44,748 nt of DNA. Origin: a virus. Positions within the stretch are counted from its first letter, which is position 1, and every line of letters starts with the position of its first letter. The position numbers and the translations under genes are program-made. Below the pieces are notes generated by a model. It worked only from the letters and a program-made list of their open reading frames with translations, made no database searches and was not told the DNA's origin. The DNA lies in the IMG/VR virus record IMGVR_UViG_3300010354_000158, positions 1 through 44,748 of that record. One strand, 5' to 3'. Shown one piece after another: positions 2,094 through 44,748 of the stretch.

Positions 2094-2771
2094 TTAGAAA
2101 CTATTTTTTACGTAGTTTTCATCGTAGCCTTTCATTACATCAGAAGATTTTAAAATATACTCCTCTGGTGCCTTTTCGACATTTGGGAGATTTTTTACAT
2201 CGACCCTGAAAGTAGGGTCATCGTGCATATTCGTTTTTGCGTTAGCGACCATGTACTTATACTTGTCCTCCTGTGTCGGTTGCCAATAGTCAGTCAACTT
2301 GACATTGTAGGGGAAGCTGTGCAAGGATTGTAATTGCAATTTCTCTGTCGGTGTAGGAACGCGCATTTCCAATTCGCGTTTGACACGTTGTGCAGTTTCA
2401 GCAGATTTATTTTCCAAATCCTCGAATTTTTGGTTCAACTCTGATTTAAAGGATTCATTTCCTTTCAGTAGTTCACCTATCTTTCCAAGAACGTCTTGTA
2501 CTGTTTTATTTATTTCGTCTTGTTTTAGTACTAATTGGGTTACGTCGAGTTGGACGGCGTTATCTGAAACTTCTGCGGGTTGGGTGACAGTAGCATCAGC
2601 TGGGGCTGCATCCTGTGGGGCATTTGTGTCCTGTGGAACATCGCCTCCCTGTTGCTGTGCAGCGGCTGCTTGTGCAACGTCTCCCAAACCAAAGGCATCA
2701 TCAATCTCATCTTCGTTCAATGGCCTTCTGCCGTAGTAGTTGTAATTGGTTATAAAATCAAAGTTGTTCAT
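2094..2771 (-). CDS. Hypothetical protein with Ala/Gln/Pro-rich linker and coiled coil
   Basis: 225 aa, not recognised. The N-terminus (NNFDFITNYNYYGRRPL) and an acidic stretch are followed by an A/Q/P/D-rich low-complexity region at about residues 33-65. A heptad-like stretch, probably a coiled coil, spans about residues 75-135. The C-terminal third is a charged, aromatic domain (KLTDYWQPTQEDKYKYMVAN). It lies 18 bases after the 57-aa gene and at the end of the tail block, so it may be a virion or assembly protein, but nothing identifies a role. The 9-mer TGGACGGCG lies inside it at 2551 and is read as Ala-Val-Gln. Confidence 0.7.
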   Translation of the reverse strand: MNNFDFITNYNYYGRRPLNEDEIDDAFGLGDVAQAAAAQQQGGDVPQDTNAPQDAAPADATVTQPAEVSDNAVQLDVTQLVLKQDEINKTVQDVLGKIGELLKGNESFKSELNQKFEDLENKSAETAQRVKRELEMRVPTPTEKLQLQSLHSFPYNVKLTDYWQPTQEDKYKYMVANAKTNMHDDPTFRVDVKNLPNVEKAPEEYILKSSDVMKGYDENYVKNSF

Positions 2772-2789
2772 TCTTATCTGTTTTTAGGG

Positions 2790-2963
2790 TCAGTCTTTTA
2801 ATAGTTGTCTTCCATCTTCAACAAGAAAGGTCTTATCCACGACTTCCAACATACCATTAGACTCTTTCATTTTTACACTTTTCCTTTTTACAGTCTTCTC
2901 TTTTGTTTCAACTGCTTCAAATTTTTCAGTTTTATTCAGGTACTGATTCAAAATGTTTTTCAT
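2790..2963 (-). CDS. Small basic hypothetical protein (57 aa)
   Basis: An open frame from ATG at 2963 (MKNILNQYLNKTEKF) to TGA at 2790, rich in Lys and Glu. It fills the gap between the 1657-aa gene and the 225-aa gene and ends 18 bases before the latter. It has an ATTTAT-type element 19-29 bases upstream (2982-2992), the same kind found before virion genes. No domain is recognised. The position and the shared upstream element make it a plausible gene despite its size. Confidence 0.55.
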   Translation of the reverse strand: MKNILNQYLNKTEKFEAVETKEKTVKRKSVKMKESNGMLEVVDKTFLVEDGRQLLKD

Positions 2964-2981
2964 TTTTAAAAATTGTTTTTT

Positions 2982-2992
2982 AAATAAATATT
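2982..2992 (-). promoter_or_regulatory. ATTTAT element (putative late promoter)
   Basis: The plus strand reads AAATAAATATT, so the coding (minus) strand reads AATATTTATTT, 19 bases before the start of the 57-aa gene. It matches the element upstream of the tail sheath, tape measure and neck genes. Confidence 0.4.
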
Positions 2993-2998
2993 CAACTT

Positions 2999-5900
2999 TT
3001 ATCTTTTCGATGCAATGTTTATAGCTGTCGGCATAAATTGGTATGCCATGACAGGTATGAAGTTGGCCGCTGGTTTCATATTCGAGATTTTATTGTTACT
3101 ATGGAAATTATAAAAAATACCATTATAAAAAATACCAATATGTGTTATAATAGAAAAAGGATATTCGTTTGTTTTTGGTTTTAGATTGTCTGGAACCCGT
3201 CTGTTTATTGTCAATTGGTTTATTCTTGCTCGATTATTACTATTTTTAATAACTTCAAAAGATTCATCAATATATTTAGACCCAATTGTTAAACCAAAAA
3301 GAAAAGAACCATTTTTAAGCCCTGCATCTATAAGATCCTGATTACTCCAATTAGTTAATTTTTGATTTGGAGAGAAATATTGAACATTACCATTTTCTGG
3401 TAATCCAACAGCCCATTCCCAAGCATCTCCTAAAATATTTTGGTTTTTATATATACCGAGTTCTGAAAGTGCAAGTTTAACCCATTTTGCACAGTTTGCA
3501 CCAACGACACCGTAACTATTAAAATTGTTTGGATTAAATACAGATGCTAACTTACTACTAAACGTAGCTGAATTAATATTACTGCCCAATAAATACGAAG
3601 CAACTTTTCCATCTGAACCGACGACTCTAAAGACTTCGTTGGGGTTATTTACAGCAGTTGTTCCGATATTCAAGCCTCCAGATAAGATAGCATCTGCTTC
3701 TGCGGTAGTAAACCCGACATTTATAAGACCATCTCTACTATAATATTCACTATCTTTTCCATCAACGATTATGCTGTAATCTTGAGCTGCTGTAACATCT
3801 GTCTGCAATTTATCATTCACTCCGATGTTGAAGTAACTGGTAATCTTGTCAACAAGCGGATACACAAATTTTGAAATTCGCCGTCCACCAAACTCCGTGA
3901 CCATATCATGTGGAGTAATAGTATGTTTGACATTAGTAATCATGTGCGCACCATGAAACAAAGGTATGTTATCCAACTGAAAATACATGGTCGGGAAAAT
4001 CTGTGTATTTCCCATACATTCCACATCGGTTCTGTAACTTCTCACAGCATAGGCATTATAAAGGTCTGCACCCATATAAATCCTTTTTGTGCCGCCCTTG
4101 CCTCCAGCCAATTGATCCTGAATAGTCATGCTTTCAGCAGTCTCCCTGTGGTCTTCCTGTGTAACATTTACCTTTTTAAAAATGCTTTGATTTTGGTCGG
4201 CGTAAGAGACCCTGAAGATGCAGAGATTAAACTTGTCAAGATATTCTTTCGAGTATGGTGTAACACTGTTTACATAATAAGAAGGGACATTTTTTTGACT
4301 AAATCCAGGTGGCACAAACGTCTTACTTCTTGCATTAAAATCAAACCCATCGTTTAAGTAATAAGCACTTTCTGCATTAAGGTCAAGTACTTTACTGTTA
4401 CCAGCGACATACTGGAAAATCATACATGAACCACCTTCTGTATTTTCGACGTTGGTATAGGGTCTGAAGATATTAGACACCTCGTTTTTATTTCCAAATT
4501 GAACGAAAGCTGGGATGTTATAGAAGTTGAAATTGTTATCTTTTATTATCCTCGAAATGAAAAAATAAATATTCCCATCTATCTGACCCGAATACGTCAA
4601 AAGTGGTGTGGGATTAAGAACAACCTTATCTCCAATATCAGACCAAGTCCTGTCAATAAAATAACAATGCTCAATTAATTTTGTGGGCCGATTACCTTTC
4701 CTTAGATACCTTGAGAAATTATAAACCTTACCGTCACTTGTATTATACGAAAGCCATTTATCGTAAATGTTTTTTAAATGTTTGTAAATAACAATTTTTA
4801 AGTTCTTGTCAACCACTAAATTGTTTTCCTCTGCATTCTGTTCGGTATTTGCGTTGGGGGTAGCATTTTGTTTTGGGGACAATAGATAAACAAAAGTCTC
4901 TGCAAATGTTTTAGCATAAGCAGTAACCCTGTTGGTATCTGTCATATATACCATCTGGTTATCAGAAGGTACAGAGGGGATTATGACTTTGTTGACTTTT
5001 TTAAATAATTGTAATAAAAAATCTTTTGCTTGATTATATTGAGATTCTGTAATGTTTGTTCTCTTACGGTAATAAATATAATATACTAAAGCTGAATCAA
5101 GTTCACCAGAAAACAAAAATTCATCACTAAATTGTCTAAAAACATTAAAAAAATAATCGTTATTATCTTCAAAAGTTTTGAAAGGTTTAAATATGTTTTC
5201 ATTTGCTATCAAAGAAAAATTTGGATTGTTTTTTATATCTTCTGTTAAAAAATTGGGGTATTTTTTTTGAAAAGATATTCCACCCAAATACGCAGCATAA
5301 AGATATGGTATATTCGATAGATTTGCGGAAGTCTTGTCTTTTAGATTAGTATAATAACTTGAATCTTTAAACCCGATAGAATATAAAAACATGAAAGCTC
5401 TTGCATTATAATTGTTATCAGTATAATAAAATTGATTGAATAAATTAGCTCCTCTATTATAATTCGTAAAACTTTTACCCATACCACTAAACAATGTCAC
5501 ATCATCCAAAAAAGTAATTAACGGTTCTGTAGTATCCAAAGTCCTGCTACCGACCAATGTATTATATCTTAACAAAAGATGCTGATATATAGTCGGATTT
5601 GTGAAACAATCGGAATAATCGAGTATATTCAAAGCGATAGGTTCACTTATAAAGAAGTTTTCATTTTTTAACCCTTCAGATAATACAGTAGATATATTTT
5701 TCCTGATTCTATTCGTTAGAACGTCTGTTATATTGGCAGCAAAAGTCTTTGGTGCAAAACCTTTAAGACTTGTTTCAAGATTGTTTAAATCCGATAAAGG
5801 TATTTCGTATAATGGATTTAGATTGGTTGTAGCAGTGGATGTATTATATGATTGGTAATAATTTGTAAGATCACCTCTAACCTTTAGTCTTATGTTATCT

Positions 5901-7972
5901 ACGTTGTTTTGGGCGTATTGGACGGCGGAATTTACAAAATCCGTTATGTTGGTATTTTTTAAAGTCTCTTTGACATTCGAATTAAACACCTTGGAGGTAA
6001 AGTATGCTGCCTCAAGTTGTGCAAATGAAAGGATTTTGCCGTCTGTCTTTCCACTGGAAGATAACGAATAATCACTTAGAAGATGCAACCTTGAAAACAT
6101 TACCTCAAACAATTCATCGAAATTGTTTCCGTTGTAATTAAAACTGTCCGCTGTGTCGTAACCGTTGGCACTGTAATCAAATGGATGTATCGGAACCCAT
6201 TTTTCACCCAAAGAGGTTGAATAGGACTGTATACTCCCCTGAAGAATATCTGTAAGTTGTTCAGATAAAGAATTGTTTAAAAGTTGATTGACAATATCTA
6301 TTTCTGGGTAATAAGGATTCGTTTCTCCCACTATATCTCCAAGCCAAACATCCACACCTGCTTCATTGTAAACACCTGGAAATGGATAGATTTTGTCGTG
6401 TGTATGTGGTATATCAGTACTCTTCAACGAGTTTGTAGTCCTGAAATAGTCTGCAAGCAAGCCAACACGTTCCTGACCATAGCTTTCTGCCTTTTGACAG
6501 ACACTATAAAGCTGGTCCAAGAAGACATCAACATTACCCATAATAACCTCTAAAACATTCCTGATTGTGGGGTTAAAACCTATTTCTTGTATAAACCCTG
6601 CATTCAAATCATTTACGATTTTCTCTTGGGTATTTGTCCTAAGCTCATTTACTTTAGTATTTACTGAATCGACATTACTGCGGATTTCATAAAACGAATA
6701 ATAGTAAACAGGTGTATAGACACCCATTTTATTTTCCACATCGCTTAGAACATAATATGCTTTATAGTCGATAGATTCTTGTTCGAATATGGCATCGGAA
6801 ATATCAGTTATTAATTCATCATTAATCTCTGTATAACCCTTTGATTTAGTCGGTGTGAAATATTCGAGTTTATAACTGCTCAAAGAAGGATAACCCTCCA
6901 AGATAGTGTTTATCTCTGTAATCCTGTTATTGATATTGGATTGAAGTTCTTCAACATTCCCTATCAACTTTTCTCCGAATAAACCAATGTCCCTGAAGAA
7001 CATATAACCTTGCAAACTATTAAAGGTTTCATAGTTTATATTATTGCCATAAACCTTGTCTTCCCTTTTAGTACAAGGCAAGCCAAGTATAGTTATTAAT
7101 TCGTTTATCTTTTCAGAGACAGTATTCAAAGCAGTTATAATGGCTATGTCTGGATTATCCTTCTTCTGATTCTCGATATACGTTGATATTTTAGTATATT
7201 TCTGCAAAAGGTCTGGTATAGACATCAATCCAACATCGCCGTTCAACAACTCATATTTTGACAAAAGGTCTTTACCAACAGCGGTATTATTCAAATCTAT
7301 CACATATTTCGTAATAATATCTGCCAAAAACGCATAATCATACCCGATAAATTTTGTTTTTATTGAAAAATCCCCTGTTTCGCCGTCCAACGTCGCCTTA
7401 AAATCAATCAAATTCAAATAATATGTTGTAGCTTTACCATAGTATCCTTTTACTGTCAATTCAAAAATAGGATACGGCATTGTAAAGAAGGCATTATACT
7501 TTGAGGTATTATAATAATCCTTTCCAACCTGTCTTTCATAGTCATTGAAAATGGCTGCACCTCTTACATCTACGAAGTCTATTTCGACGGTGGACGGCGT
7601 AAACATATTCATGCTGATTCTTATATTCGTTATTCCCAACCCCTCCTCTGTTTTTCCGCCGTCCACCCCTCCAATGTTACTATAATCAGTGGTAAGGTAT
7701 CCATCACTCTTTTTATTCCTGCCTATAAAATAAATCCCGTCTTCGTCTTGAGACTTGCTACTATAAGTGTTATTGGAAACAATGGTACTCCTGTTTTGGG
7801 GGAAAGCGCGTAATCTCGCAAAGATAAAAAGGTCTTCCGTTGGAACAGAAATGTTTCCAATAGGGTTCGGATCAACCACACAAGTGAAGTAAGAATCAGT
7901 GTTAACATTACCATTTGAAGTAGAATCAAACAGGTCTTCTACTACATATTTCAGGTCATTTAGATTAGCCAT
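2999..7972 (-). CDS. Giant baseplate/tail protein with C-terminal NlpC/P60-like Cys-His domain
   Basis: 1657 aa. The N-terminal part (residues about 1-220) has beta-rich segments such as TMPYPIFELTVKGYYG followed by LDGETGDFSIKTKFIGYDYAF, a style seen in large contractile-tail baseplate proteins. The middle is long and Asn/Tyr-rich. Around residues 1310-1385 a conserved-looking block includes IFPTMYFQLDNIPLFHGAH and ITPHDMVTEFGGRR, hub-like in character. The C-terminus looks enzymatic: ANCAKWVKLAL with Cys1494 and ITHIGIFYNG with His1611 have the spacing and flanks of an NlpC/P60- or CHAP-type peptidase. That would suit a tail-tip murein hydrolase used during entry. It is followed by the 57-aa gene and preceded by the LysM protein. 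The baseplate role is inferred; the peptidase call is moderate. Confidence 0.65.
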   Translation of the reverse strand: MANLNDLKYVVEDLFDSTSNGNVNTDSYFTCVVDPNPIGNISVPTEDLFIFARLRAFPQNRSTIVSNNTYSSKSQDEDGIYFIGRNKKSDGYLTTDYSNIGGVDGGKTEEGLGITNIRISMNMFTPSTVEIDFVDVRGAAIFNDYERQVGKDYYNTSKYNAFFTMPYPIFELTVKGYYGKATTYYLNLIDFKATLDGETGDFSIKTKFIGYDYAFLADIITKYVIDLNNTAVGKDLLSKYELLNGDVGLMSIPDLLQKYTKISTYIENQKKDNPDIAIITALNTVSEKINELITILGLPCTKREDKVYGNNINYETFNSLQGYMFFRDIGLFGEKLIGNVEELQSNINNRITEINTILEGYPSLSSYKLEYFTPTKSKGYTEINDELITDISDAIFEQESIDYKAYYVLSDVENKMGVYTPVYYYSFYEIRSNVDSVNTKVNELRTNTQEKIVNDLNAGFIQEIGFNPTIRNVLEVIMGNVDVFLDQLYSVCQKAESYGQERVGLLADYFRTTNSLKSTDIPHTHDKIYPFPGVYNEAGVDVWLGDIVGETNPYYPEIDIVNQLLNNSLSEQLTDILQGSIQSYSTSLGEKWVPIHPFDYSANGYDTADSFNYNGNNFDELFEVMFSRLHLLSDYSLSSSGKTDGKILSFAQLEAAYFTSKVFNSNVKETLKNTNITDFVNSAVQYAQNNVDNIRLKVRGDLTNYYQSYNTSTATTNLNPLYEIPLSDLNNLETSLKGFAPKTFAANITDVLTNRIRKNISTVLSEGLKNENFFISEPIALNILDYSDCFTNPTIYQHLLLRYNTLVGSRTLDTTEPLITFLDDVTLFSGMGKSFTNYNRGANLFNQFYYTDNNYNARAFMFLYSIGFKDSSYYTNLKDKTSANLSNIPYLYAAYLGGISFQKKYPNFLTEDIKNNPNFSLIANENIFKPFKTFEDNNDYFFNVFRQFSDEFLFSGELDSALVYYIYYRKRTNITESQYNQAKDFLLQLFKKVNKVIIPSVPSDNQMVYMTDTNRVTAYAKTFAETFVYLLSPKQNATPNANTEQNAEENNLVVDKNLKIVIYKHLKNIYDKWLSYNTSDGKVYNFSRYLRKGNRPTKLIEHCYFIDRTWSDIGDKVVLNPTPLLTYSGQIDGNIYFFISRIIKDNNFNFYNIPAFVQFGNKNEVSNIFRPYTNVENTEGGSCMIFQYVAGNSKVLDLNAESAYYLNDGFDFNARSKTFVPPGFSQKNVPSYYVNSVTPYSKEYLDKFNLCIFRVSYADQNQSIFKKVNVTQEDHRETAESMTIQDQLAGGKGGTKRIYMGADLYNAYAVRSYRTDVECMGNTQIFPTMYFQLDNIPLFHGAHMITNVKHTITPHDMVTEFGGRRISKFVYPLVDKITSYFNIGVNDKLQTDVTAAQDYSIIVDGKDSEYYSRDGLINVGFTTAEADAILSGGLNIGTTAVNNPNEVFRVVGSDGKVASYLLGSNINSATFSSKLASVFNPNNFNSYGVVGANCAKWVKLALSELGIYKNQNILGDAWEWAVGLPENGNVQYFSPNQKLTNWSNQDLIDAGLKNGSFLFGLTIGSKYIDESFEVIKNSNNRARINQLTINRRVPDNLKPKTNEYPFSIITHIGIFYNGIFYNFHSNNKISNMKPAANFIPVMAYQFMPTAINIASKR

Positions 7973-8114
7973 ATCTGTTTTTTAAAAAAATGCTTGTAAC
8001 TTATTGGTTGTCAAGCAGTTGTAGAGGTTTTTTTGTATTCTGGCGGTGCTAAAAATATATATCTTTAAACCCCCGTAGATTACATTCTTCTTTCGAACCT
8101 ATATCTTATGAACC

Positions 8115-8130: not shown

Positions 8131-8134
8131 ATCA

Positions 8135-8443
8135 TTAATAATAGCTTTTGAATTTTTCCATAATGTCAATGTAGCGTTGGACGGCGGATTTGTAGGGGAA
8201 GGGAATTAAGATTATGGAACCATCAGGTATTTCATCTTCGTTTGTCCCCAGTGTAGCATTCGCAAACATTATTAAGGTTCCCCCATAGGGTGTTCCATAA
8301 TACTTCTGCGAAATAACATCCATCCTATCCCTGTCCTTATTCCAAAGATAAGTTTTATCACCACTTTCTGTTGGAAAGTCAACGTGTGGCACAATGGTTA
8401 TTTTTTCGTTTTCTATAAACGGGTCGTATATGTTATAATACAT
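8135..8443 (-). CDS. LysM-type baseplate wedge protein (T4 gp53-like)
   Basis: 102 aa. The central and C-terminal part, from DRMDVISQKYYGTPYGG through LIMFANATLGTNEDEIPDG to SIILIPFP, is a LysM-like domain: an initial D-x-hydrophobic-I-s-x-x-Y-Y-G, an ANa/NP-type turn, and a final IPxGxxLxIP strand. Phage T4 gp53 and related small baseplate proteins have this domain, where it bridges wedge parts or contacts peptidoglycan. Its ATG overlaps the stop of the upstream 1181-aa baseplate gene (TAATG), implying translational coupling. The 9-mer motif at 8178 is read as Ala-Val-Gln. Confidence 0.7.
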   Translation of the reverse strand: MYYNIYDPFIENEKITIVPHVDFPTESGDKTYLWNKDRDRMDVISQKYYGTPYGGTLIMFANATLGTNEDEIPDGSIILIPFPYKSAVQRYIDIMEKFKSYY

Positions 8444-11400
8444 TATCCAATTATTTGTTTTTCTTCATTTGTTAAAGGCAGATTGAATCTGGATTTGAAA
8501 GCAGCAATATTTTCGCCGTCCAATGAATCCACAACACTATTCAAAGTCGGACTTGGATTTAATGGTGTAGAAGGAACTCCTTGTTTCAACACATCGTTTT
8601 TCCTTTGCATTCTATTATCATTTAATGTAGTTGAGTCATCTGTGACTTCATCAACATCCACGACTTTATTTAATCTTACACCTTCTTTGATATACCAAGA
8701 CTCTTCTTTATCATCTTGATATTTAAAACCATATTCAACGCTGTCGGCCCTTGGTTCAAACATATTCATAGAAGCATAGAAGTTATAAGAAAGTGCGTTC
8801 TGGAGCCTGTTTAGAGGCGCTACAAGCGATTGTCCGCCAATCAACGATATGTTTAATGTTATGTTCGCTATCATCGGTGCAACAAATCCTTCTGGGTTTA
8901 AATCCCATTTTATTTGTGCATCTGACTTATAATCAATATTCATGGATTTTATTACCATCTTGGTATGGAAAAAGTCGCCTATTCTTAGGATACATACAGG
9001 CGGACGGCCAAATGCAAGGTTGGTGGTAAAATCTATATTCTCTACACCAATGTTCCTTCCCTGTCTTGTACATTGGTGCAAGAAGTTCAACCTTCCATTA
9101 AATCCCTCTGGGGTCATGGAATGAAATGCAGGGTGGAAGTATCTGATTTTTTCTGATATTGACCTGTATGAGTGTGGGTCATATACTTCCAAATACTCGA
9201 ACATATCGCATTCTGTGATGGCAAACAATTTATCCAAAATATCTGGTGAAATGTCTTCATCTACAATCGGGTCAGAATCTGCATCATCTTGATTGAAATT
9301 ATCGTCATCTACAACATCATCTGGTGTTGCATCATCAGGGGTTGTATCATCTGGTACATCGAAATTATATTTTATATCAACTCTCCTTGCCCTTACAGAT
9401 TCGACACTACCCCTGTCAACATTTTCACCCGTTCCTGTTGAAAGAGTGTCAGATAAAGCCAACGATTTAAATACAAAATCTACATCTGTTAGATTATTGA
9501 TATAAGTGTCAAAATAATCTACAAACCAATTTTTTATGGATTCAGCCCTTTCTTCAGATAATTTTAAATTAGTTGTATCTAAAGGTGTTGCTTGACTGGC
9601 GGAGCCAACAAAATAGAACGTAACTTGTGTATATTGATAATCGTTTATCAGTTGTATTATTTCTATGATTTTTCTTTCTAATAAAGCATCATTAAAAAAA
9701 TCATCATTTACTTGGTAATTTGTTCTGTTATCGTAAGGGGGATTAAATTTTTTATCCCTTTTTACTCCTTTATAGTAGGTGTAATCCAATCCAGTGGGTT
9801 GGAAAGATGATTGATAACCAGGATTTTCATTTATATTACCATTTCTTACAGGTGTTCTTGATACATTATTTGGGAAATAAACTGAAATAAAATCATAGGG
9901 TGCATCAGTTGCTGCTTGTGCATCCTTGTCAACTTTTTTATCATCTTTTTGGCTTTGTGTTAATGCTGGTTGATTTGTTTTTTTAATCGGTGGTTTTTTA
10001 GATTTTGCTTTCTTAATTTGTTGTATTTCATCTTCTGTTAATCTTTCATAAAGCGTGTTTTCGATGATGTCAAAAACAGATTTGTCACCTTTGAAATATC
10101 TTTCCCAAATTTCAGTCCTCTGCCCCCTGATTTTATTAACGACCATTGGATGGTCAACAATCATTGAAAAAGTCAATGTACCATCCCTTGAAGTGTTATT
10201 GTATGTGTATATCGGTTCACCTCTTCCAATAAATTTATGTTCATTCCAGTCAACAGTTACAGATTCAGTGAAATCCAAATTATATGGAGGAAACCACATA
10301 ATTCTACCAGCCTTTCCAGTCAACAAATCGCCAGCACCTATTTCACAGTCTGGTAATTCTGCTAAATGGTCGCTCCATGCAAGATTTTCAATCGAAAACA
10401 TATATCTTTTTAGCAAAACTCCATTCGACCTTCTGAAAGTCGGAGCGAAGTTTAATAAACCATTATTTTTTAAAACACTTGGAACTCCTTTTCTGTCAAG
10501 ACCTCTGTGGGATATAGCCCTGTTAAGTTTTGAATATTGTCTATCTTTTGTCCATACGCGAAAGAAATCTCCAGCCTTGACATCGTATTCCAACCTATCT
10601 TCATCTACTGGCCAATCCCCAAAAGCAGTTACAGAATCACCTTTTGAAATAATGATTTCCTCACCTCCATCTGTTACTTTAAATTCCTTTAGGGTTGAAT
10701 CAAGGAATTGTCCACTTCCATTTGGTCTATCCCCTGCATCATTTACAATATCCTTTGTTTTTCCCAAAAGGGAATAAGGGCTTAATCTGTTTTCTTGGTT
10801 TGCATCTTTTACCCAATATACATCATTTGGATTTCTGTCTTCTCCTATTGTGAAGTCGGTGGACGGCGAAAAAACATCCACTCCCTTTCCACCTTTTTTG
10901 TGTTGGGTGATGTTGTATTCTGTGTTATAATATAATCCGCGTTCATCTGAAAAACTCCAATCTATACCACCACTTTTATTTAAAACTGTGGTTGCATCTC
11001 TAAAATTTATTATCTCGGCATTAAATTGCCCAGTGAAAGGTTTTGGTGCATTTGGTCCGACATAAAGATATTCATTACTCTTTACGGGGTAATCGTCATC
11101 TGGGATACTCGGTCTAAATGTATTCCTGTCTAAATGGTCTTGCAACGCCTGCTTTTGACCTGCACCAGTATAGTCAAGGATGTTCTTGTAATAAGCATCT
11201 CTGCTTATTATACCTTCACCTACCTCGTAATTTATATTGAAAACGTCGTTTGGGAGATAGCTTAAAGGAAATTGACCGCCAGATAATTTTTGCAGAAATG
11301 TAGCGGCTTTACCAATAGTCGTTCTTGGAACAGATATATCATAAGGGACACGCCGTAATGTACCGTTGGATACTAATTTAAACGGGTCTGTTTGCAGATA

Positions 11401-15159: not shown

Positions 15160-15203
15160 AAAAAAAAGTGCTGCTTGGAACGAACTTCGCCGTCCAACAG
15201 CAC
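15160..15203 (-). terminator. Intrinsic terminator after tail tube gene, carrying the 9-mer in its hairpin
   Basis: On the minus strand GTGCTG-TTGGA pairs with TCCAA-c-AGCAC-type partners (15193-15203 with 15168-15179, one bulged C), and the stem is followed by T8 (15160-15167). The 5' arm and loop contain TTGGACGGCG (15188-15197), one of only two intergenic copies of the repeated 9-mer. Its TTGGA provides five stem pairs. Confidence 0.8.
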
Positions 15204-33042: not shown

Positions 33043-35013
33043 TTATTTCATTATGATGTTTTTATTCTCCTGTTTCTGTCTGGCTCTTTCAAAAACCTCT
33101 TCTTCATGTGTCGCATCGAATAGACAGTAATAGACTGTAACATCTTCTTTTCTACCTATACGCCAGCTTCTTCCTTCGGCTTGTTCATGTTCACCACTAT
33201 TCCAATCGGGGGAATTAATGACAGCTACATCTCCTTTGGTAAGGTTGTGACCAGTACCCAAAGTTTTTATATTACCGATAATAACTTTTACTTTATCATC
33301 ATTTTGAAAACTATCTATAAGCCCTTGTTTTTTCTCTGGTGACATCGAAGCATTGATTCCCACGGCGATTTTTGAGAAGTGTTTCATAAATGCCTCATAC
33401 TCTTCTTTAAAATGTGTGAAGATAATTACCTTCAAACCATCTTCTATTTTACCTTCGACGAAATTGGTTGTGTGTTGTATTTTCAGTTTTGCTAAAAATT
33501 CACGCATCTTTATAGACTGGCTTACAATAGCCAATTCTTCTTGGCTTGCTTTCTTTATCGGTCTTTCGCTAAGATATTCTTCCCACATTGACCTGTATTC
33601 CAGTTTTTCATCGTGTGATAATTCAAAGTAAAGAGGAAAAACAAACTTGTTTGGGAAGAAATCTAATACCTCGGTTTTCTTTCTTACTATTTGGGTGTGT
33701 TTTATCCTCTGGAATAATTCTTCACTATTACTGTTCTCTATTTTCTTGTCGCCGACCTTTCTACCCAAGACCATAACCTTTTTTCTTTTGTCTGGCAGAC
33801 CGCTTCTTAATAATATCTCACAATCCTTTTGGGTTAATGTATTTACTGGTTTGACGGTGGATTGGACGGCGATTTCCCAATTTTTTCCTTTTTTATATCC
33901 GTGTTGTTCGATGATATTCAACACACCCTTAATCCTGCCAAAACTTTTCAAATTGTCAGGTATAACTCCCATAATTGACTCCTTATTGAATTTGCTTTTG
34001 GGTGTGTCTATAACCTGCTCATAAGCGTTGCAATAATTCAAGGCATATTCTTTATACTTGTCAATCATATCCTGAAACCAACCATTTGCCAAAACAAGAT
34101 CACTTACATTTGTATTGATTGTCCTACAAATGTTATAAAAATCTACATTTCTTTCAAATGGTGTTGCTGACAAACCAATTACTTTTTTTACAGAAGATTG
34201 TGAACAAAGTTCTTTGATACAGGCACTTTGAATGCTGTCTGGATTTTTTGCTCTATGCACCTCATCAAGGATTATACAATCATAGCGGTTTTCAATCAAG
34301 ATATTATTGTCGCTTTGTTTTTTTCCTTTTTTTACTGAAACGAAGTTTTTAAGTATTTCATAGTTTATGATGGTGAAGGTGGACGGCGAATTATTAAATT
34401 CCGTTCCAGATACTACTTTTGCAGTCTGCTTAAACATCTCCACTTCTCGCTTCCAGTTTAACTTCAAGCTGGCCAACGTCACCACCAAAACATTACTATA
34501 TCCGCAGTCCAAAGCAGCGACAATTGCACTGGCAGTCTTACCCAAACCCACATCATCCCAATTGAAAGCAGGATTTGCCAATTTCATAAATCTTACCCCT
34601 TCGACTTGGTGTGGAAACAGTGTTCTGTTTAAGGTATTATTTTCACCCTCATATTTTGTCGGGTCGAATGGAACCAAAGAAATTCTTTTCTTAAAGGGGT
34701 CTTCGCATTCGTCTTTATATACAAAAAAACTTGCTCTTTTATATCCGAAGTGATATACTTCGGATGTCTCCCCGTATAGGAAATCAATGGTTATTTCGGA
34801 GAAGTCTTTTTGGGTGCCAAATTGTTTATTCAGATATTCCACATTTCGCCGTCCAACCCCCAACTTCAAATCCTCGAATCTATCACCACAGTATCTTAAA
34901 TTAATTGAAAGATACTCTTTTTCAAAATCAGTTAGATTTCTTTTAGTTAATTCATTTTTCAGTAACAGAATAAATGGATTTCTCCCACTGTAATTTTTTA
35001 ACAATTCTTCCAT
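33043..35013 (-). CDS. SNF2-family DNA helicase/translocase
   Basis: 656 aa. ATP-driven DNA translocase by family. Motifs: Q-like LFPHQVEGVRFM (residues 132-143); motif I DDVGLGKTAS (153-162); motif Ia VVTLASLKLNWKRE; motif II ILDEVHRAKNP (248-258); motif III GLSATPFERN (280-289); then KVIIFTHFKEEYEAF; motif V GHNLTKGDVAVIN; and motif VI QAEGRSWRIGRK near 615-626, with the Snf2-type Q-x-x-x-R-x-x-R-x-G. It resembles T4 UvsW-like or Rad54-like repair and recombination enzymes, consistent with the RecA-like gene nearby in the genome. It carries a Bacteroidetes-type promoter. Three 9-mers are in it; at 34847 the motif is read as Gly-Arg-Arg. Confidence 0.9.
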   Translation of the reverse strand: MEELLKNYSGRNPFILLLKNELTKRNLTDFEKEYLSINLRYCGDRFEDLKLGVGRRNVEYLNKQFGTQKDFSEITIDFLYGETSEVYHFGYKRASFFVYKDECEDPFKKRISLVPFDPTKYEGENNTLNRTLFPHQVEGVRFMKLANPAFNWDDVGLGKTASAIVAALDCGYSNVLVVTLASLKLNWKREVEMFKQTAKVVSGTEFNNSPSTFTIINYEILKNFVSVKKGKKQSDNNILIENRYDCIILDEVHRAKNPDSIQSACIKELCSQSSVKKVIGLSATPFERNVDFYNICRTINTNVSDLVLANGWFQDMIDKYKEYALNYCNAYEQVIDTPKSKFNKESIMGVIPDNLKSFGRIKGVLNIIEQHGYKKGKNWEIAVQSTVKPVNTLTQKDCEILLRSGLPDKRKKVMVLGRKVGDKKIENSNSEELFQRIKHTQIVRKKTEVLDFFPNKFVFPLYFELSHDEKLEYRSMWEEYLSERPIKKASQEELAIVSQSIKMREFLAKLKIQHTTNFVEGKIEDGLKVIIFTHFKEEYEAFMKHFSKIAVGINASMSPEKKQGLIDSFQNDDKVKVIIGNIKTLGTGHNLTKGDVAVINSPDWNSGEHEQAEGRSWRIGRKEDVTVYYCLFDATHEEEVFERARQKQENKNIIMK

Positions 35014-36390: not shown

Positions 36391-37419
36391 ATGCAACAAG
36401 ATTTAAACGATTACCTGATTTTACAATCGGCACAAGGCTTGAACAGCCGTTCTATGGTCGAAGCCTTTGATACTCTTCCTATTTTTACTGCTCCGATGGA
36501 CACTGTTGTTTCGGCGAATAATATGCAGGAATTTATTTCACATGGAATAAACGTCTGTCTCCCCAGAAACGAATTTTTTCAACCCGAAAATAATGTCTTT
36601 TCATCCCTCGGTCTTGAGGAGTTTATGTTGGAGATTTTGGGGGATGATGTGGTGGACGGCGAATATAATGGCAAAAAAATCCTGATTGATATTGCAAACG
36701 GGAATGTTCCGCTTCTGCATGAATCAATTATTAAATTCAAACAAAAACATCCAAGCGGAATAATCATGGCTGGTAATGTCGGCTCTGTATCTGCTTTTAA
36801 GGCACTTGCAGAAACTGGTTGTGATTATATCAGGGTCGGTATTGGCGGAGGCTCTGGATGCCTTACAACCGTTCACACAAGGGTTGGTCAAGGAATGGCT
36901 ACATTGATTCAAGAATGTAGGAAAGCAGTGGAAGAGAATAAATATTCCTGCAATATTGTCGCAGACGGAGGAATGCAGAATTACGGTGATATTGTAATGG
37001 CACTGGCACTCGGAGCGGATTATGTTATGCTTGGGGGTATTTTCAACCGTGCATTTGAAAGCTGTGCGAACAAATATGTTGAAACAAAGCGTGGTAATAT
37101 GAAACCACTGGAAGATTATTTGCGAAAGCATAACAAGACCACAAAGGAACTGATTGCCGAAAAAAGGATGTATGCTGATTTTAGGGGGATGTCCACAAAG
37201 GCCGTCCAACGCGCTTGGGGCAAAAAACAGTTGAGGTCATCTGAAGGTATTGTTAAATTAAACCTTGTGGAATATACGTTGAAAGGTTGGGTGGAGAACT
37301 TCAAAGATTATCTGAAGTCTTCAATGGCCTATGTTGGCGCAAAGAATTTGAAAGAGTTTAGGGAATTTGCGGAAATTGTTGAAATCTCCACAAACACCCG
37401 TAAAAGATTTAATAAGTAA
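36391..37419 (+). CDS. GMP reductase / IMP dehydrogenase family enzyme
   Basis: 342 aa, the usual length of GMP reductase (IMPDH is longer because of CBS domains, which are absent here). Features: APMDTVVS (34-41), the nucleotide-binding IIMAGNVGSVSAF (125-136), the catalytic loop VGIGGGSGCLTTVHTRVGQG with Cys157, the strand IVADGGMQNYGD and LGGIFNRA, and YADFRGMSTKAVQ, which matches the Y-R-G-M-S/G-S flap of the family. By family it would convert GMP to IMP (reductase) or IMP to XMP (dehydrogenase), both changing the guanine nucleotide pool. It has a Bacteroidetes-type promoter and ends exactly where the convergent kinase-like gene ends. Which reaction is catalysed cannot be settled here. 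Confidence 0.85.
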   Translation: MQQDLNDYLILQSAQGLNSRSMVEAFDTLPIFTAPMDTVVSANNMQEFISHGINVCLPRNEFFQPENNVFSSLGLEEFMLEILGDDVVDGEYNGKKILIDIANGNVPLLHESIIKFKQKHPSGIIMAGNVGSVSAFKALAETGCDYIRVGIGGGSGCLTTVHTRVGQGMATLIQECRKAVEENKYSCNIVADGGMQNYGDIVMALALGADYVMLGGIFNRAFESCANKYVETKRGNMKPLEDYLRKHNKTTKELIAEKRMYADFRGMSTKAVQRAWGKKQLRSSEGIVKLNLVEYTLKGWVENFKDYLKSSMAYVGAKNLKEFREFAEIVEISTNTRKRFNK

Positions 37420-38572: not shown

Positions 38573-38581
38573 TGGACGGCG
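38573..38581 (+). repeat. Intergenic copy of the 9-mer abutting a start codon
   Basis: TGGACGGCG occupies half of the 18-base gap between the acetyltransferase gene's stop and the kinase-like ATG, ending one base from the ATG on the minus strand (cgccgtcca-c-ATG). It lies where a Shine-Dalgarno would be in other bacteria, although it does not resemble one. Confidence 0.9.
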
Positions 38582-38589
38582 ATTTTATA

Positions 38590-39783
38590 TTAATCTTCTT
38601 GGCTTAGGCTTTCTGCCAGTTCTACGATAAAAGTTTCGTATTCCTCTGCTTTAAGTCTGTCTTTTCCAGCGGCGAGAAATCTTTCTTGCCGCTCTTTGTT
38701 TGCGAGGTTTTCGTAATTTATTGGTTTGCCTTTGCTATATGCCAATCCATTTTTGATTTCGTATAACGATTTATCAATATGTTTATCAAACATCTTGTGA
38801 ACGTCATCTACAATCAAAGGTGTTTTTTCATCATATAGTCTCGAAGCAAGCAGCAGATTTAATATTTTAGATATGTCTTTTGGATTTGTGTAGAAAGAAT
38901 ACAACCTGTAAGCATCTTTCCAATCAAGATAAATCAAATGGAAGTGACCCAATATGGCTCTATTTATAAAAAAATCATTCATTCCTTTTTCGCCGTCCAA
39001 CCCCTCAAATATCTTTTTATTATAGACAGTAAAACTACTAGAATCTTTAAAGTTATGAACAAGAATTTCACCCTTGCGCATATTAAAATCTTGATTCGGT
39101 TTATTAGATATTATTCTTTGGGGAAGTTGCGAGATAATTTCTTTAACCTTCTCTTTGGTTATATGATTATTTTTTATCAGATAACTATAAAATCCTTTGC
39201 TCAAGTAATCACGGACAGAATTTTCGTAATATTTTTTGGTAAGATTATAACCTTTTTCTGTGAATCCACCAGAATCCATTTTAGGGTAATGTTTTCTAAA
39301 TTGCTTTAAAAGAATTTCCCCCAAACCAAAGCCTCTAAATTCCTCTACAACTGTTATTAAGACCGCTCCCCATTCATCCTGTGCAGCTCCGACTAAAACA
39401 TCATCTTCATCAAATATAGCCACAGTAATCGAAAAAGGATTAATTCCAAGTATTTTTAACTCATCATCATTAAAATATAATGTCTCACCGCTTTCATTTT
39501 TTATTTGGTCTCCATATTCGTCAGTCATCACATATTTTTCTTTGTAATGCTGTTCTCTTAACTCAAATTCCATTCCTTTTGCAACAAACCTGTTGATTAG
39601 TTTTGGAAAATTACTTTTTTGATTATAACTGCTGTTTTTATTGTCTTCATAGGTAGTTCTATATGCAGATGAAGGATGACTTTCATCCCTCTTATTAAAC
39701 TGCATATAGAACTCTTTCCATGTCATCAAAGCTGGATCAACCAACTTCTTAATATATTTTGTGGTAGCTTCGTTTAACATCAA
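38590..39783 (-). CDS. GNAT-family acetyltransferase with capsid-targeting-like leader
   Basis: 397 aa. The N-terminus MMLNEATTKYIKKL contains L-N-E-A. The GNAT signature lies at about residues 119-165: SITVAIFDEDDVLVGAAQDE then ITVVEEFRGFGLGEILLKQF, where RGFGLG (150-155) is the R/Q-x-x-G-x-G/A acetyl-CoA pyrophosphate loop. The remaining 230 residues hold an unrecognised helical domain with basic stretches. It overlaps the metacaspase-like gene by 4 bases, so the two are translationally coupled. T4-type phages inject enzymes that modify host proteins; this could be one, but the substrate is unknown. Confidence 0.75.
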   Translation of the reverse strand: MMLNEATTKYIKKLVDPALMTWKEFYMQFNKRDESHPSSAYRTTYEDNKNSSYNQKSNFPKLINRFVAKGMEFELREQHYKEKYVMTDEYGDQIKNESGETLYFNDDELKILGINPFSITVAIFDEDDVLVGAAQDEWGAVLITVVEEFRGFGLGEILLKQFRKHYPKMDSGGFTEKGYNLTKKYYENSVRDYLSKGFYSYLIKNNHITKEKVKEIISQLPQRIISNKPNQDFNMRKGEILVHNFKDSSSFTVYNKKIFEGLDGEKGMNDFFINRAILGHFHLIYLDWKDAYRLYSFYTNPKDISKILNLLLASRLYDEKTPLIVDDVHKMFDKHIDKSLYEIKNGLAYSKGKPINYENLANKERQERFLAAGKDRLKAEEYETFIVELAESLSQED

Positions 39784-40583
39784 TTCAAAAATTCCCTATA
39801 AGTAATCTTGTCCTTGTGGCCGTTAACAACCTGCAACTTCGGCGTTTGTGGATAACCAGTTTTGGCAATCTGCTCTCCAATCCGCTTGAAAATCTGAAAA
39901 TAATTCAATTGTTTATTTTCTTCTTTTTGGAAAATCTTTTCGATGCTGGCTGTAAACAAACCCATAGGGCGTTTATCAACAAACGACTGCATATCATAAG
40001 ATACCTGCTGTTCTGTCGAAGACGAATACGCTACAATATTGCATTTCAAGTCTTCTGCCTCTTCAAAAGCATCGCTTCCATGCAGTGCTTTTTCGGCATT
40101 GTCTGGGTGTGGCAGTGATTTAAATTCAACAAATTTTGGAACGCCGAAGGATTCAGCACCCAACGACTTGAAATTATCTCTTGCATGGCAGCAATCCGCC
40201 ATCCAAATTACATTCACACCCTCCTTGAATTTGCTTAACATTTCGCGGGTCTCATAGTCCCAAACGATTCTATCGTGCAAGCAGAGGGCTGTTCTGCGCT
40301 TCTCAACGCCATTCTCTTCATAGTCTTCGTATGTGCCATGACATGAGACAGTAAACAAGAATATATCGCCGTCCACCAACTCCTCACCCATTTTTGTCAT
40401 AAATTCAACATACTTTGAATAGGTGGCTTCTTTTGACAAAAATACGTTCGTATCATATCCTTTTTCCTTTGCTACTTCTGCAAGGTATAAAATATCGTTT
40501 TCACAACCACGAAGGTCGTTATCAGGCCCGTAATATTCGGGATCAAAATGTTTAATGCCAAAATGCAGTGATACTTTTTTCAT
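39780..40583 (-). CDS. Metacaspase-like cysteine protease (caspase/C14 fold)
   Basis: 267 aa. Features in order: LHFGIKHFDPEYYG and LRGCENDILYLAEVAKEKGY (caspase p20 start, with the L-x-G-C-x-N-D pattern), FLFTVSCHGTYEDYE with His82, MADCCHARDNF with the D-x-C-H arrangement and likely nucleophile Cys132, then AYSSSTEQQVSYD, which resembles the S1 loop, and GLFTASIEKIF. Metacaspases use this His/Cys dyad and often cleave after Lys or Arg. Its presence in a phage is unusual: possible roles are counter-defence, killing, or processing of phage proteins. It lacks the [IL]-x-E-A leader of its neighbours. It is coupled to the acetyltransferase gene and has an ATTTAT element upstream. Confidence 0.85.
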   Translation of the reverse strand: MKKVSLHFGIKHFDPEYYGPDNDLRGCENDILYLAEVAKEKGYDTNVFLSKEATYSKYVEFMTKMGEELVDGDIFLFTVSCHGTYEDYEENGVEKRRTALCLHDRIVWDYETREMLSKFKEGVNVIWMADCCHARDNFKSLGAESFGVPKFVEFKSLPHPDNAEKALHGSDAFEEAEDLKCNIVAYSSSTEQQVSYDMQSFVDKRPMGLFTASIEKIFQKEENKQLNYFQIFKRIGEQIAKTGYPQTPKLQVVNGHKDKITYREFLN

Positions 40584-40595
40584 GTTGAATTTTTA

Positions 40596-40605: not shown

Positions 40606-40621
40606 GGGGATTTTGGAAAAA

Positions 40622-41317
40622 TCAATCCCAATAACCTATATTTTTTTTGAAATGAGTTTTGTTGCCGATGTTCAAGAAATTTGTTATCAAGAGTTTAACC
40701 ATCCCAAAATATCCTATTTTTTTAAATCTCCTGTCATCTTGTCCGACATAAGAATTTAAAATCTTGAAATCCTTTTTTTCGATGTTCTCCGAAAAAAAAT
40801 AATCTTCAGATTGATGCAATGTTTCATCAAATCCTCCGATTTCCAAATAGGTTTTTTTTGTCACCATCATAAAGATTCCTGGGCAGAAAGATTTGCGGAG
40901 GAGGGATTGGACGGCGAAAAATAATTTGAATATAATGTCCACAATCAAATTATTATTGGTGGATTTTATTTTCGCACCGATTAGTTTATATTCTTGGAGG
41001 GATTGGACGGCGTTTTTTAAAATATTTTCATCCAAAAGAACAGCGTCGGCATCCAAAAAGAGCAGCAAATCGCCTCCCGCAATTTTTGCCCCATTGTTTC
41101 TTCCAACCGAAACCGTTCCACCAGCAGCGACAACAATCTTATTTTTTGAGGTCTTTGCGTATCCCCTCACTTTTTCAACTGTCCCATCCGTAGATTCGCC
41201 GTCCAACACCAAAACCTCCCTAACGAATATCGTTTGGTTATCAATGCTCTTTAATGTCTCGATGATATAATCCCGTTCATTCTTGCACGGAATAATAATG
41301 CTTAAATTCTCCTTCAT
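40622..41317 (-). CDS. Family 2 glycosyltransferase
   Basis: 231 aa. GT-A fold signs: LSIIIPCKNERDYIIETLKS at the start, VLVLDGESTDGTVEKV with the nucleotide-binding D-x-S-x-D-G-T, LLLFLDADAVL with the D-x-D metal site, then GGFDETLHQSEDYFFSENI with E-D as the likely catalytic region. It should transfer a sugar from a nucleotide donor; the acceptor is unknown. The start (MKENLSIIIP) overlaps the end of the LpxH-like gene by 41 bases, so the two are read together. Three 9-mers occur (40908, 41004, 41197). Confidence 0.85.
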   Translation of the reverse strand: MKENLSIIIPCKNERDYIIETLKSIDNQTIFVREVLVLDGESTDGTVEKVRGYAKTSKNKIVVAAGGTVSVGRNNGAKIAGGDLLLFLDADAVLLDENILKNAVQSLQEYKLIGAKIKSTNNNLIVDIIFKLFFAVQSLLRKSFCPGIFMMVTKKTYLEIGGFDETLHQSEDYFFSENIEKKDFKILNSYVGQDDRRFKKIGYFGMVKLLITNFLNIGNKTHFKKNIGYWD

Positions 41318-41975: not shown

Positions 41976-43609
41976 TTGTTTAAAATTTGTTTGAACCTGT
42001 CCTTTTCCAATTCTTCAATCTTGTCCCCAAGTGCTTTTCCAGAGAGATTATATTGCCTTGCAACATCGTCCCCACCGATTGAAGGTTGGTATTTTAAAAA
42101 TGCGTTTATCAAATCGGAGTTTAGATTATAAACAGTTTTCAAAAAATATTTAAGTTCGTCTTCATCCAGATTTAATTTGTTTGCTTTTTTACGGAGTTGG
42201 ACGGCGGTTTCGGGGGATAGGTCTTTCAGAGAGATTAGGGTTGAAATATCATTGGCTTCTTTGGAGGTGTATTTCAATTTGTTTAGCATCTGAAAAACTG
42301 CCATTGGGTTGTTGTTTTTCAATAGTCCCGCTATCACCAAGACAGGATTTTTATTTTCCAAAAATGTTTCGGAAACCTGTAGTTGAGGAAAAATCTCTGC
42401 AAACAAATCCAGTTTTTTCAATAGATTGAGATAATAAACAACCGATTTTGACTTCAAAATCCCCTTAATAAATTCATCCCTTACCCTCTCCTTTGAAACG
42501 CCGTCCAACGAATTATTCCTCTTTATTTCCACCTCTATTTCGCCGTCCAACCCCGAACCAGTAACACCAGCAAATCTAACAGCTCTCAAAATCCTGATCC
42601 TGTCCTCACCAAATCTTTCTTTCGGATTACCAACAGTTTTGATATTGCCTTTGGATATATCGTCAATACCCCCAACCAAATCAATCACCTTGTCATTCAA
42701 AATGTCATAATATAAAGCATTGATGGTCAAATCCCTCCGCTTTGCATCTGCATCAATATTTGAGAATCTAACCCCCTCTGGCCTTCTTCCGTCCTTATAT
42801 TCGCCGTCCTCCCTGAATGTAGCGATTTCATATTCCTCCCCATTTATAATAACGGAAATGACCCCAAAGGCTTCACCTTTTGGGATGATTTTGTCATACC
42901 CTTCCGCTTGCAGGATTGATTTGATTCTATCTGGAGAAGCGTCAGTGGTTAAATCATAGTCCTTTGGGGTCTTACCCAAAAACATATCCCTGACAGCACC
43001 ACCGACCAAATAAAGACCGTTACCGTATTTCCCGAACTTTCTTGCAAGGACTTTAATATCCGAAGGAACATCCATCATTTTCAGACCGCCTTTATCAATG
43101 AATTTAAACTTGATGAAATCCGCAAAGTAAGGATTCTGTTCCAATTCCTTTGCCTTTTTATCTGTCATATTGGGGAGATTTTTTATTTTCATGTGACTTG
43201 CCACAATCTCCTTAATCCGTTGAACATCGCCACCCATACCTTTTATCCAATCGGCATATTTTTCCACCAAATCAGCAGAAACCTTTTCGTGCCCGAATGC
43301 ACTGGGATTGCCCGTTTTTGGGTTTATAGCGTAGACCGCATCCTTGCCAATATCGTGAAAGAAAGCAGCCAAAATCATATCAATATCGTTTGGATATGTT
43401 TTGATGGCCCTTTTGGTCACTTCCATCATGTGTTTCAAGGTATTGCCCTCTGGGTGGAAGTCTGCCCTTTGCTTAATATCCCATCCCTTGAAAAACCTGT
43501 CTTTCAATTCCTTGGGGGCAGAGTTGAAAAGTTTTTTAAAGTCGAGATATTCTTGGGAGAAGGCTTCTTTTATTGCGCCCAATTGGTTTTCGGTTATAAA
43601 AATTTTCAT
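41972..43609 (-). CDS. HD phosphohydrolase + tRNA nucleotidyltransferase (CCA/poly(A) polymerase) fusion with leader
   Basis: 545 aa from ATG 43609; the longer in-frame start at 43660 overlaps the next gene and is not favoured. The leader MKIFITENQLGAIKEAFSQ has I-K-E-A. Residues 50-150 form an HD domain (FHPEGNTLKHMMEV, AAFFHDIGKD with H85-D86, AFGHEKVSA). Residues 195-350 are the class II nucleotidyltransferase core: LYLVGGAVRDMFLG, KDYDLTTDA (D217-D219), RRDLTINALYYD and RIRILRAVRFA. The rest is the RNA-binding part. In E. coli the HD domain follows the transferase domain; here it precedes it. It would repair or add CCA to tRNA 3' ends, perhaps countering tRNA-cleaving defence. Three 9-mers occur. 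Confidence 0.85.
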   Translation of the reverse strand: MKIFITENQLGAIKEAFSQEYLDFKKLFNSAPKELKDRFFKGWDIKQRADFHPEGNTLKHMMEVTKRAIKTYPNDIDMILAAFFHDIGKDAVYAINPKTGNPSAFGHEKVSADLVEKYADWIKGMGGDVQRIKEIVASHMKIKNLPNMTDKKAKELEQNPYFADFIKFKFIDKGGLKMMDVPSDIKVLARKFGKYGNGLYLVGGAVRDMFLGKTPKDYDLTTDASPDRIKSILQAEGYDKIIPKGEAFGVISVIINGEEYEIATFREDGEYKDGRRPEGVRFSNIDADAKRRDLTINALYYDILNDKVIDLVGGIDDISKGNIKTVGNPKERFGEDRIRILRAVRFAGVTGSGLDGEIEVEIKRNNSLDGVSKERVRDEFIKGILKSKSVVYYLNLLKKLDLFAEIFPQLQVSETFLENKNPVLVIAGLLKNNNPMAVFQMLNKLKYTSKEANDISTLISLKDLSPETAVQLRKKANKLNLDEDELKYFLKTVYNLNSDLINAFLKYQPSIGGDDVARQYNLSGKALGDKIEELEKDRFKQILNK

Positions 43610-43620
43610 ATTATTCGTTT

Positions 43621-44748
43621 TCAATAAATATATTTTTTTATGAATTTCCAGTTGCCACAATCCCAGACCTTATCATAACCCAAACAAATCATCAATTGTT
43701 CTTCTGTCATCTTGGGGTCCATTTCGGGGTATTCTTTTAAAATCTTATGCTTTTGGAAGCGAACCCTGTTGAACAGTTTTTGCCCTAATTCTGGCTTGTA
43801 ATAATGATACACTGGCGGTTGCTTTTCAATCAATTCAAAACCCAATTTGGTGTATAAATTATTTTTCCCATCTGGTGTCCATCGAATGTCTGCAAATGTT
43901 TTTAGGGTGGACGGCGAATGTTCCCGTTCAAAATGTTTCAACATCTTGGATGCAAGCCCCCTGACATGGTAATCATAATTTGTGGCGTATCTGTTCAAAT
44001 CAAATTCGCCGTCCACTTTCCCCCGCAAAAATGTCATCACCCCAACCAATTCGCCGTCCAACCACGCCCCATACCTAATAGGTGCATTATCATGCCCTTG
44101 TATATGGAATTTACTTAAAAAATCTTTTGTGTTATTATAAGAAATCCGTTTTATTACGCAATCCCTCGCATTAACCTTTTTCCCCGTGTTTAATCCACAA
44201 GCGTTTAATAACTTGTTTTTCACCAGCTCTGGTTTTTCAAGGTATTCGTTTTCAAATACATGGTAAAGTCTTATGCCTTTGCTTGCTGCCAAATTGCTTT
44301 TTTCTATGTGATAATTCTTTGTCTTGGTATTCACTATTTTGTACTTATGTTCAACCAAACCTTCCCTGTGGAAAAGCAACCCATTAAATTCTATCCCTAT
44401 TTCGCCGCCGCTGCCATAGGCACCCACAAGCAAATCAATCTCCCTACCCTCCAAAATCTTCTTATTATGTTGTTCCACATTCTTCCCTAAAGAAGAAAAC
44501 AATTCAGCATACTCATTTTCTATTTTTGAAGAATATGCAGTACACTTTTGACAACCACCCCCAAGCAAATGTACATAAGGTGCGATTTCAAATATTCCAT
44601 GTTTTTTACATAGTATCTTTATCTTCTCCCGACAATCTTTATATTCATCCACATATTCGTATTTATCACCGTGCACACTTCTTGCCTTTTCAATATAGGT
44701 TATGGTGTCATAATTGTTAACAGTCTTTCCACACATCCCACAACCAGT
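43621..44748 (-). CDS. VSR/PD-(D/E)xK-type homing endonuclease with GNAT-like C-terminal domain, 5' end outside window
   Basis: The frame is open to the right edge; the ATG at 44736 sits inside a zinc-finger string TGCGMCGKTVNN, so the true start is beyond the window. A repeat unit follows (HGDKYEYVDEY, then KILCKKHGIFEIAP and GGGCQKC): a treble-clef zinc finger found in phage homing-type nucleases. Next a PD-(D/E)xK/VSR-like core: KIENEYAELF, GREIDLLVG and IGIEFNGLLFH. The C-terminal 150 residues resemble the Mom/GNAT-like region of these proteins (RYGAWLDGELVGVMTFLRG, DLNRYATNYDYHVRGLASKM, NNLYTKLGFELI). Such genes spread by cutting uninfected copies. Three 9-mers fall in it (43908, 44007, 44052). 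Confidence 0.8.
   Translation of the reverse strand, partial: TGCGMCGKTVNNYDTITYIEKARSVHGDKYEYVDEYKDCREKIKILCKKHGIFEIAPYVHLLGGGCQKCTAYSSKIENEYAELFSSLGKNVEQHNKKILEGREIDLLVGAYGSGGEIGIEFNGLLFHREGLVEHKYKIVNTKTKNYHIEKSNLAASKGIRLYHVFENEYLEKPELVKNKLLNACGLNTGKKVNARDCVIKRISYNNTKDFLSKFHIQGHDNAPIRYGAWLDGELVGVMTFLRGKVDGEFDLNRYATNYDYHVRGLASKMLKHFEREHSPSTLKTFADIRWTPDGKNNLYTKLGFELIEKQPPVYHYYKPELGQKLFNRVRFQKHKILKEYPEMDPKMTEEQLMICLGYDKVWDCGNWKFIKKYIY
43622..43632 (-). promoter_or_regulatory. ATTTAT element (putative late promoter)
   Basis: The coding strand reads AATATATTTATTG, 13 bases before the CCA-enzyme start and inside the last codons of the next upstream gene. Confidence 0.35.

Follow-up and report, generated by a model that had tools for sequence, protein, structure and literature searches.

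A strict nine-base word marks the end of a polar DNA element in one phage genus and looks like a Chi-like or uptake-like signal

At a Chi site, the preserved RecA-coated 3' strand lies upstream of the site. A helicase-nuclease that meets Chi stops degrading DNA and leaves a 3' tail onto which RecA is loaded (PMC5030088), and RecA favors TG-rich or TGG sequence, TG-rich surroundings of Chi having been reported (PMC3763553). Whether such GT islands are selected or follow from codon usage is a disputed question. Here we analyze the 44,748-nucleotide IMG/VR virus record IMGVR_UViG_3300010354_000158 (positions 1 to 44,748; hereafter the window), which holds 42 exact copies of the word TGGACGGCG. 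To our knowledge, the only dispersed signals of this strength are uptake sequences, the highly iterated palindrome HIP1 and, much weaker, Chi, and our literature searches turned up no report of such a motif. We find that a longer polar DNA element terminates in the 9-mer and that the signal is a genus-level property; it has the look of a directional signal for DNA processing, similar to Chi or to uptake sequences, that is new for such phages.

A first-pass annotation of the window had reported 42 copies in balanced orientation (21 plus, 21 minus) from 2551 to 44060, against an expectation of about 0.05, and a recount on both strands returns the same figures. Composition models of zero to second order predict 0.04-0.05 copies; at third order, after masking of the motif, the figure is 0.06. 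Shuffling synonymous codons, which preserves all proteins and codon usage, gives a mean of 0.40 genic copies (maximum 3 in 300 shuffles) versus 40 in the real genes. The enrichment thus survives a codon-aware null, and together with the composition models this rules out chance or composition as the source of the word. The backwards-read word, used as a control, has 0 copies in the window, and only 14 one-mismatch versions are present. Our own gene calls, made by simple open reading frame rules on contigs that are incomplete, place 20 copies sense, 20 antisense and 2 between genes, with four reading frames in use, in agreement with the earlier tally. The four frames and both strands rule out a protein-level repeat, and presence in contigs from several separate metagenomes rules out an assembly artefact. 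Within the window, site spacing is random with no even spacing, there is no bias to gene ends (Kolmogorov-Smirnov p=0.19; 13% fall in the outer 20% of genes), and the word is not avoided as a restriction target would be. No inverted pairs within 60 bp occur in the window; a 136-kb relative (G003) has one intergenic cluster.

The core is strict, its flanks are graded, and the extended consensus, K-TGGACGGCG-A-W-W with G at -1 upstream, is asymmetric. Position 0 is T in 23 of the 42 window sites and G in the other 19, never A or C; position +10 is A in 29/42, and +11 is exclusively A or T. The K at position 0 and the W at +11 are maintained whatever the reading frame, which bears out the earlier claim of selection on DNA; the T or G before every copy and the frequent following A of the first-pass annotation also hold.

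Nearly every site is preceded, on the strand that bears the motif, by a statistical feature that the 9-mer alone does not reveal: a C-poor G/T tract of ~12-25 nt that fades over ~1 kb. At synonymous (third codon) positions, ~90% of bases are G/T for ~12 nt upstream, versus 50% expected. The excess at these positions is +0.40 (-12..0), +0.22 (-25..-13) and +0.068 (-100..-26), and farther upstream +0.045, then +0.041, then +0.025 (-1000..-501), with the site-bootstrap interval above zero in all six cases; on the downstream side no excess is seen from +26 onward, where by the same kind of interval the value is zero or just below it. The effect is greatest at synonymous positions, its far tail is chiefly T over A, and its sign is identical at sense and antisense sites. 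The one-sided tract is present in the window, G003 and a further relative, G020, and is weak past 50 nt in the relative G001; no one-sided gradient of this kind surrounds G/T-rich words taken as controls. At intergenic sites the tract is T-rich with G close to the core and almost C-free, A is tolerated at several positions, and G/T content lies below that of synonymous positions, not above. In orthologous stretches without a site the excess is +0.07, -0.02 and 0.00, versus +0.39, +0.20 and +0.07 with one (standard errors here ignore neighboring-base correlation; the upstream gradient has site-level intervals), and the far tail is likewise essentially missing. Because the tract is one-sided, equal in both orientations and lost in orthologs without the site, we regard the element as polar and the tract as part of it. 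Furthermore, since the analysis controls for codon usage and the tract is present or absent together with the site, the GT-island question becomes testable.

Several relatives carry the word. A 66-kb contig that is 96.8% identical to the window over 29 kb has 49 copies, G003 (~67% nucleotide identity to the window) has 67 and a 72-kb relative has 34, with more fragments of the same genus at similar densities. In the carrier phage group there is ~1 copy per one to two thousand bases, and enrichment in carrier contigs is 750-3000-fold. Low-GC contigs with the motif encode many proteins ~50-100% identical to those of the window, G001 and G003, with the exception of one contig (L198) discussed below. 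The wider phage family, with sheath proteins 36-44% identical, has neither TGGACGGCG nor a comparable 9-mer, which rules out a general phage-family feature. The first-pass annotation had named equal frequency in unrelated AT-rich phages as a possible refutation; no copies occur in the AT-rich wider-family relatives. Given this restriction to one genus, the signal either originated within that genus or was imposed on it. Two lineages can be distinguished, that of the window and G001 (35-36% GC, 0.74-0.94 motifs per kb) and that of G003 and G020 (30-31.5% GC, 0.47-0.49 per kb).

Individual sites are also conserved. From the window to G003, 10/33 mapped sites are intact, and in the reverse direction 10/16, compared with ~3% expected for any 9-mer; this conservation, about ten-fold over background, needs selection. 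Near relatives have 24 sites in common and 3 that differ, 2 of the 3 by single substitutions, and the earlier suggestion of a hypermutable or spreading oligonucleotide is thereby disfavored. In orthologs that lack the site, amino-acid differences are more frequent at the core codons than in their flanks, which again points to selection on DNA and indicates that the signal is retained at some protein cost.

Table 1. Positions in the window of the TGGACGGCG cores, one example of the upstream tract and a candidate partner gene.
Feature	Position	Strand	Basis
Core	2551..2559	+	exact match
Core	3879..3887	-	exact match
Core	5919..5927	+	exact match
Core	7381..7389	-	exact match
Core	7591..7599	+	exact match
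Core; relative G001 reads TGGACGGTG	7657..7665	-	exact match in window
Core	8178..8186	+	exact match
Core; relative G001 differs across region	8514..8522	-	exact match in window
Core	10860..10868	+	exact match
Core	14588..14596	-	exact match
Core	14822..14830	-	exact match
Core, intergenic	15188..15196	-	exact match
Core	15485..15493	+	exact match
Core in tail sheath gene	18075..18083	-	exact match
Core	20332..20340	+	exact match
Core	20394..20402	+	exact match
Core	20521..20529	+	exact match
Core	21995..22003	+	exact match
Core; G003 site at matching spacing	22364..22372	-	exact match
Core; G003 site at matching spacing	22739..22747	+	exact match
Core	26371..26379	+	exact match
Core	26881..26889	+	exact match
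Core in UvrD-type helicase gene	27867..27875	-	exact match
Core in UvrD-type helicase gene	28462..28470	-	exact match
Core in UvrD-type helicase gene	28525..28533	-	exact match
Core	29385..29393	-	exact match
Core in SNF2-type helicase gene	33863..33871	+	exact match
Core in SNF2-type helicase gene	34380..34388	+	exact match
Core in SNF2-type helicase gene	34847..34855	-	exact match
Core in IMPDH/GMP reductase-like gene	36653..36661	+	exact match
Core, intergenic	38573..38581	+	exact match
Core	38991..38999	-	exact match
Core in caspase-like gene	40367..40375	-	exact match
Core	40908..40916	+	exact match
Core	41004..41012	+	exact match
Core	41197..41205	-	exact match
Core	42198..42206	+	exact match
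Core	42499..42507	-	exact match
Core	42541..42549	-	exact match
Core	43908..43916	+	exact match
Core	44007..44015	-	exact match
Core	44052..44060	-	exact match
Example 25-nt G/T-biased tract 5' of core	10835..10859	+	upstream of core 10860..10868
RecA-family (UvsX-like) recombinase match in open frame, left edge; candidate signal partner	550..777	-	sequence match

The host signal in these phages is that of Bacteroidota. The Bacteroidota promoter TTG-N18-22-TAnnTTTG occurs 34 times in phage upstream regions versus 3.0 expected, and a replication protein of these phages contains a BT4734-like domain; no tRNAs were found as a host clue. A search of genome contigs with the 15-mer GKTGGACGGCGAAAT gave single chance matches only, among the matches listed. 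L198 (IMGVR_UViG_3300032222_000394, 1-8330; 8.3 kb) has ten TGGACGGCG copies and no gene in common with these phages. Its motifs are mostly arranged as intergenic inverted pairs (four pairs) with A/T loops, forming terminator-like hairpins, and strong Bacteroidota promoters precede many of its genes. L198 may belong to the same host as a separate element, or it may be a stretch of these phages that the other contigs do not cover; a weak DUF932 match in the wider-family phage G011 bears on this question. In a scan of viral contigs for inverted pairs, L198 was the sole low-GC match, and the other five, at 50-70% GC, were judged to be chance; matches from a tandem-pair scan were mainly GC-rich and were treated likewise.

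We favor, at a probability of roughly 0.4, the hypothesis that TGGACGGCG acts, in the manner of Chi, as a polar signal that directs the processing of DNA ends and the loading of RecA, its reader being a machine of a Bacteroidota host or of the phage. The reader would be a helicase-nuclease acting on DNA ends, namely an AddAB/RecBCD/AdnAB-type enzyme of the host or, with lower probability, an SbcCD/gp46-47-like complex encoded by the phage. This machine would reach the motif from the motif's 3' side and then halt degradation, the product being a single strand with its 3' end at the motif, and the strand upstream would receive RecA or a phage RecA-like protein. Numerous sites pointing both ways would protect the phage's DNA and favor its recombination. 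We infer the recognizing machine, the nuclease switch and RecA loading; the sequences themselves show the motif and its exactness, its clade restriction and conservation, the polarity of the tract and its coupling to the site, and a RecA-family gene. In favor of the hypothesis we count the one-sided upstream tract, which matches the polarity of Chi, the RecA-family and SbcC/SbcD-like genes of these phages (G003 encodes both kinds), and the lack of such a tract at the uptake signal sequence (USS) sites of the Haemophilus phage HP1 (17 sites only). Like Chi, the element is non-palindromic and polar with its effect on the 5' side, seen here as a sequence footprint and not as an activity, and among the roles listed in the first-pass annotation a Chi-like one best fits the polarity. 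Chi is also over-represented in the host chromosome and co-oriented with replication; in the phages, the two orientations of the word are balanced.

Several observations weigh against a Chi-like signal. Known Chi sites are only 5-8 nt long and far less over-represented, and the degree of enrichment found here is closer to that of uptake sequences. None of ~950 distinct Bacteroidota genomes has more than one copy of the 15-mer, a search in which only a strongly enriched genome was detectable. The inverted pairs of L198 resemble uptake sequences, and mutation, not selection, could have left the tract as a footprint, the cause of its far tail being either of the two. Finally, the precedent is contested: as far as PMC3763553 relays the papers it cites, these ascribe the GT-rich surroundings of E. 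coli Chi to codon usage.

The alternative that survives best, although we regard it as doubtful, is an uptake-type sequence: a naturally transformable Bacteroidota host would prefer the motif, and phage DNA would have accumulated it as Haemophilus phages do USS. The size, both orientations, the magnitude of enrichment and the density (0.5-0.9 per kb versus 0.53 USS per kb in HP1) agree with this, as do the gain and loss of sites by substitution and the asymmetric extended consensus. We know of no uptake sequence in Bacteroidota, and TGGACGGCG, which contains neither CTG nor CAG, belongs to no known dialect, be it the DNA uptake sequence (DUS) with its CTG core or USS. L198 carries the motif without sharing genes with these phages, and its pairs with A/T loops resemble DUS terminator pairs (PMC3630211). 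Pasteurellaceae phages do contain USS, but large lytic ones are USS-poor (PMC6776037), and the gene-end bias present in Pasteurellaceae (PMC2346458) is absent here. The tract-free HP1 sites and the absence of an enriched host among the genomes searched also argue against uptake. A polar uptake process feeding RecA could unite it with the Chi-like reading. We tentatively propose that a host-read Bacteroidota signal was imposed on large lytic phages. In such a signal, a G/T tract that is under selection and free of structure would serve to load RecA in one direction and would terminate in a strict 9-mer; whether Chi-like or uptake-linked, it would exceed any known Chi in enrichment and would be the first site-coupled, codon-independent GT island.

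A binding site for a phage protein that organizes, packages, partitions or methylates DNA appears unlikely. Genome-wide occurrence, balanced orientation and a strict core with graded flanks suit such a site, but a one-sided gradient reaching 1 kb is not predicted, nor obviously expected for the plain binding, packaging or partition roles proposed in the first-pass annotation; spacing is random, and relatives facing the same tasks lack the motif. Similarly improbable is replication priming, whereby the phage primase would use the motif as its start site on lagging-strand template and the tract would template an A/C-rich primer. The template that some phage primases, such as that of T7, read immediately 5' of the site they recognize is G/T-rich, the per-strand distance between sites (~2-5 kb) is near Okazaki length, and the strongest part of the tract is about primer-sized. 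Known primase sites, however, span ~3 nt, nothing comparable to the motif is present in the wider-family phages that share this architecture, and a gradient from lagging-template exposure should rise away from the site, whereas the observed one falls. Least probable of all is a mutational footprint, in which a motif-reading enzyme exposes or rewrites the upstream strand toward G/T and the word spreads without benefit: the synonymous peak and the T-over-A tail would suit it, but the lower intergenic G/T content, the tolerated A and the per-site conservation do not.

Other genes of these phages may be recorded here. The window encodes a Peptidase_C14 caspase-domain protein (39780-40583, -) that is kept in G003 and G018, an IMPDH/GMP reductase-like enzyme (36391-37419, +) and a tandem WxxGxW-type repeat protein (29551-30954, -) with ~280 bp of self-similar DNA at 29609-29979. 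In G003 an IS605 OrfB/TnpB-type (Cas12f1-like TNB) gene (G003:115985-117265; L160:15985-17265) adjoins the SNF2 helicase gene, and the window has the flanking SNF2 helicase and downstream gene without it. The protein at G003:74639-75814, which precedes ribonucleotide-reductase-like genes, has a start that is intein/Hint-like as judged by eye.

The first-pass annotation had recorded neither the upstream tract nor its link with the site, and it had missed the confinement to one clade, the signs of a Bacteroidota host and the likeness to uptake sequences. As a tag in the sequence, TGGACGGCG could serve to recognize the hosts of an uncultured phage genus; for Bacteroidota, it is a candidate signal for recombination or uptake. 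Cyanobacterial HIP1 (GCGATCGC), too, is over-represented to an extreme degree in genes throughout the genome, but it is a palindrome and lacks polarity. The primase sites of T7 and T4 are, like TGGACGGCG, polar, present on both strands and adjacent to G/T template, but their ~3 nt are not enriched hundreds-fold. Neisseria DUS (ATGCCGTCTGAA) and Pasteurellaceae USS (AAGTGCGGT) resemble it in being 9-12 nt, present at ~1 per kb in genes in both orientations, hundreds-fold enriched, occasionally paired as inverted repeats and carried by phages of the host; it differs in sequence, in its Bacteroidota-type phage, in its one-sided gradient and in having no matching host among the genomes searched. 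Chi sites are, as is TGGACGGCG, short, non-palindromic, dispersed in genes, 5'-directed on the bearing strand and set in GT-rich surroundings. Unlike Chi, however, TGGACGGCG has a longer core with extended flanks, is far more strongly enriched, and is accompanied by a tract that is independent of codon usage and is gained and lost with the site.

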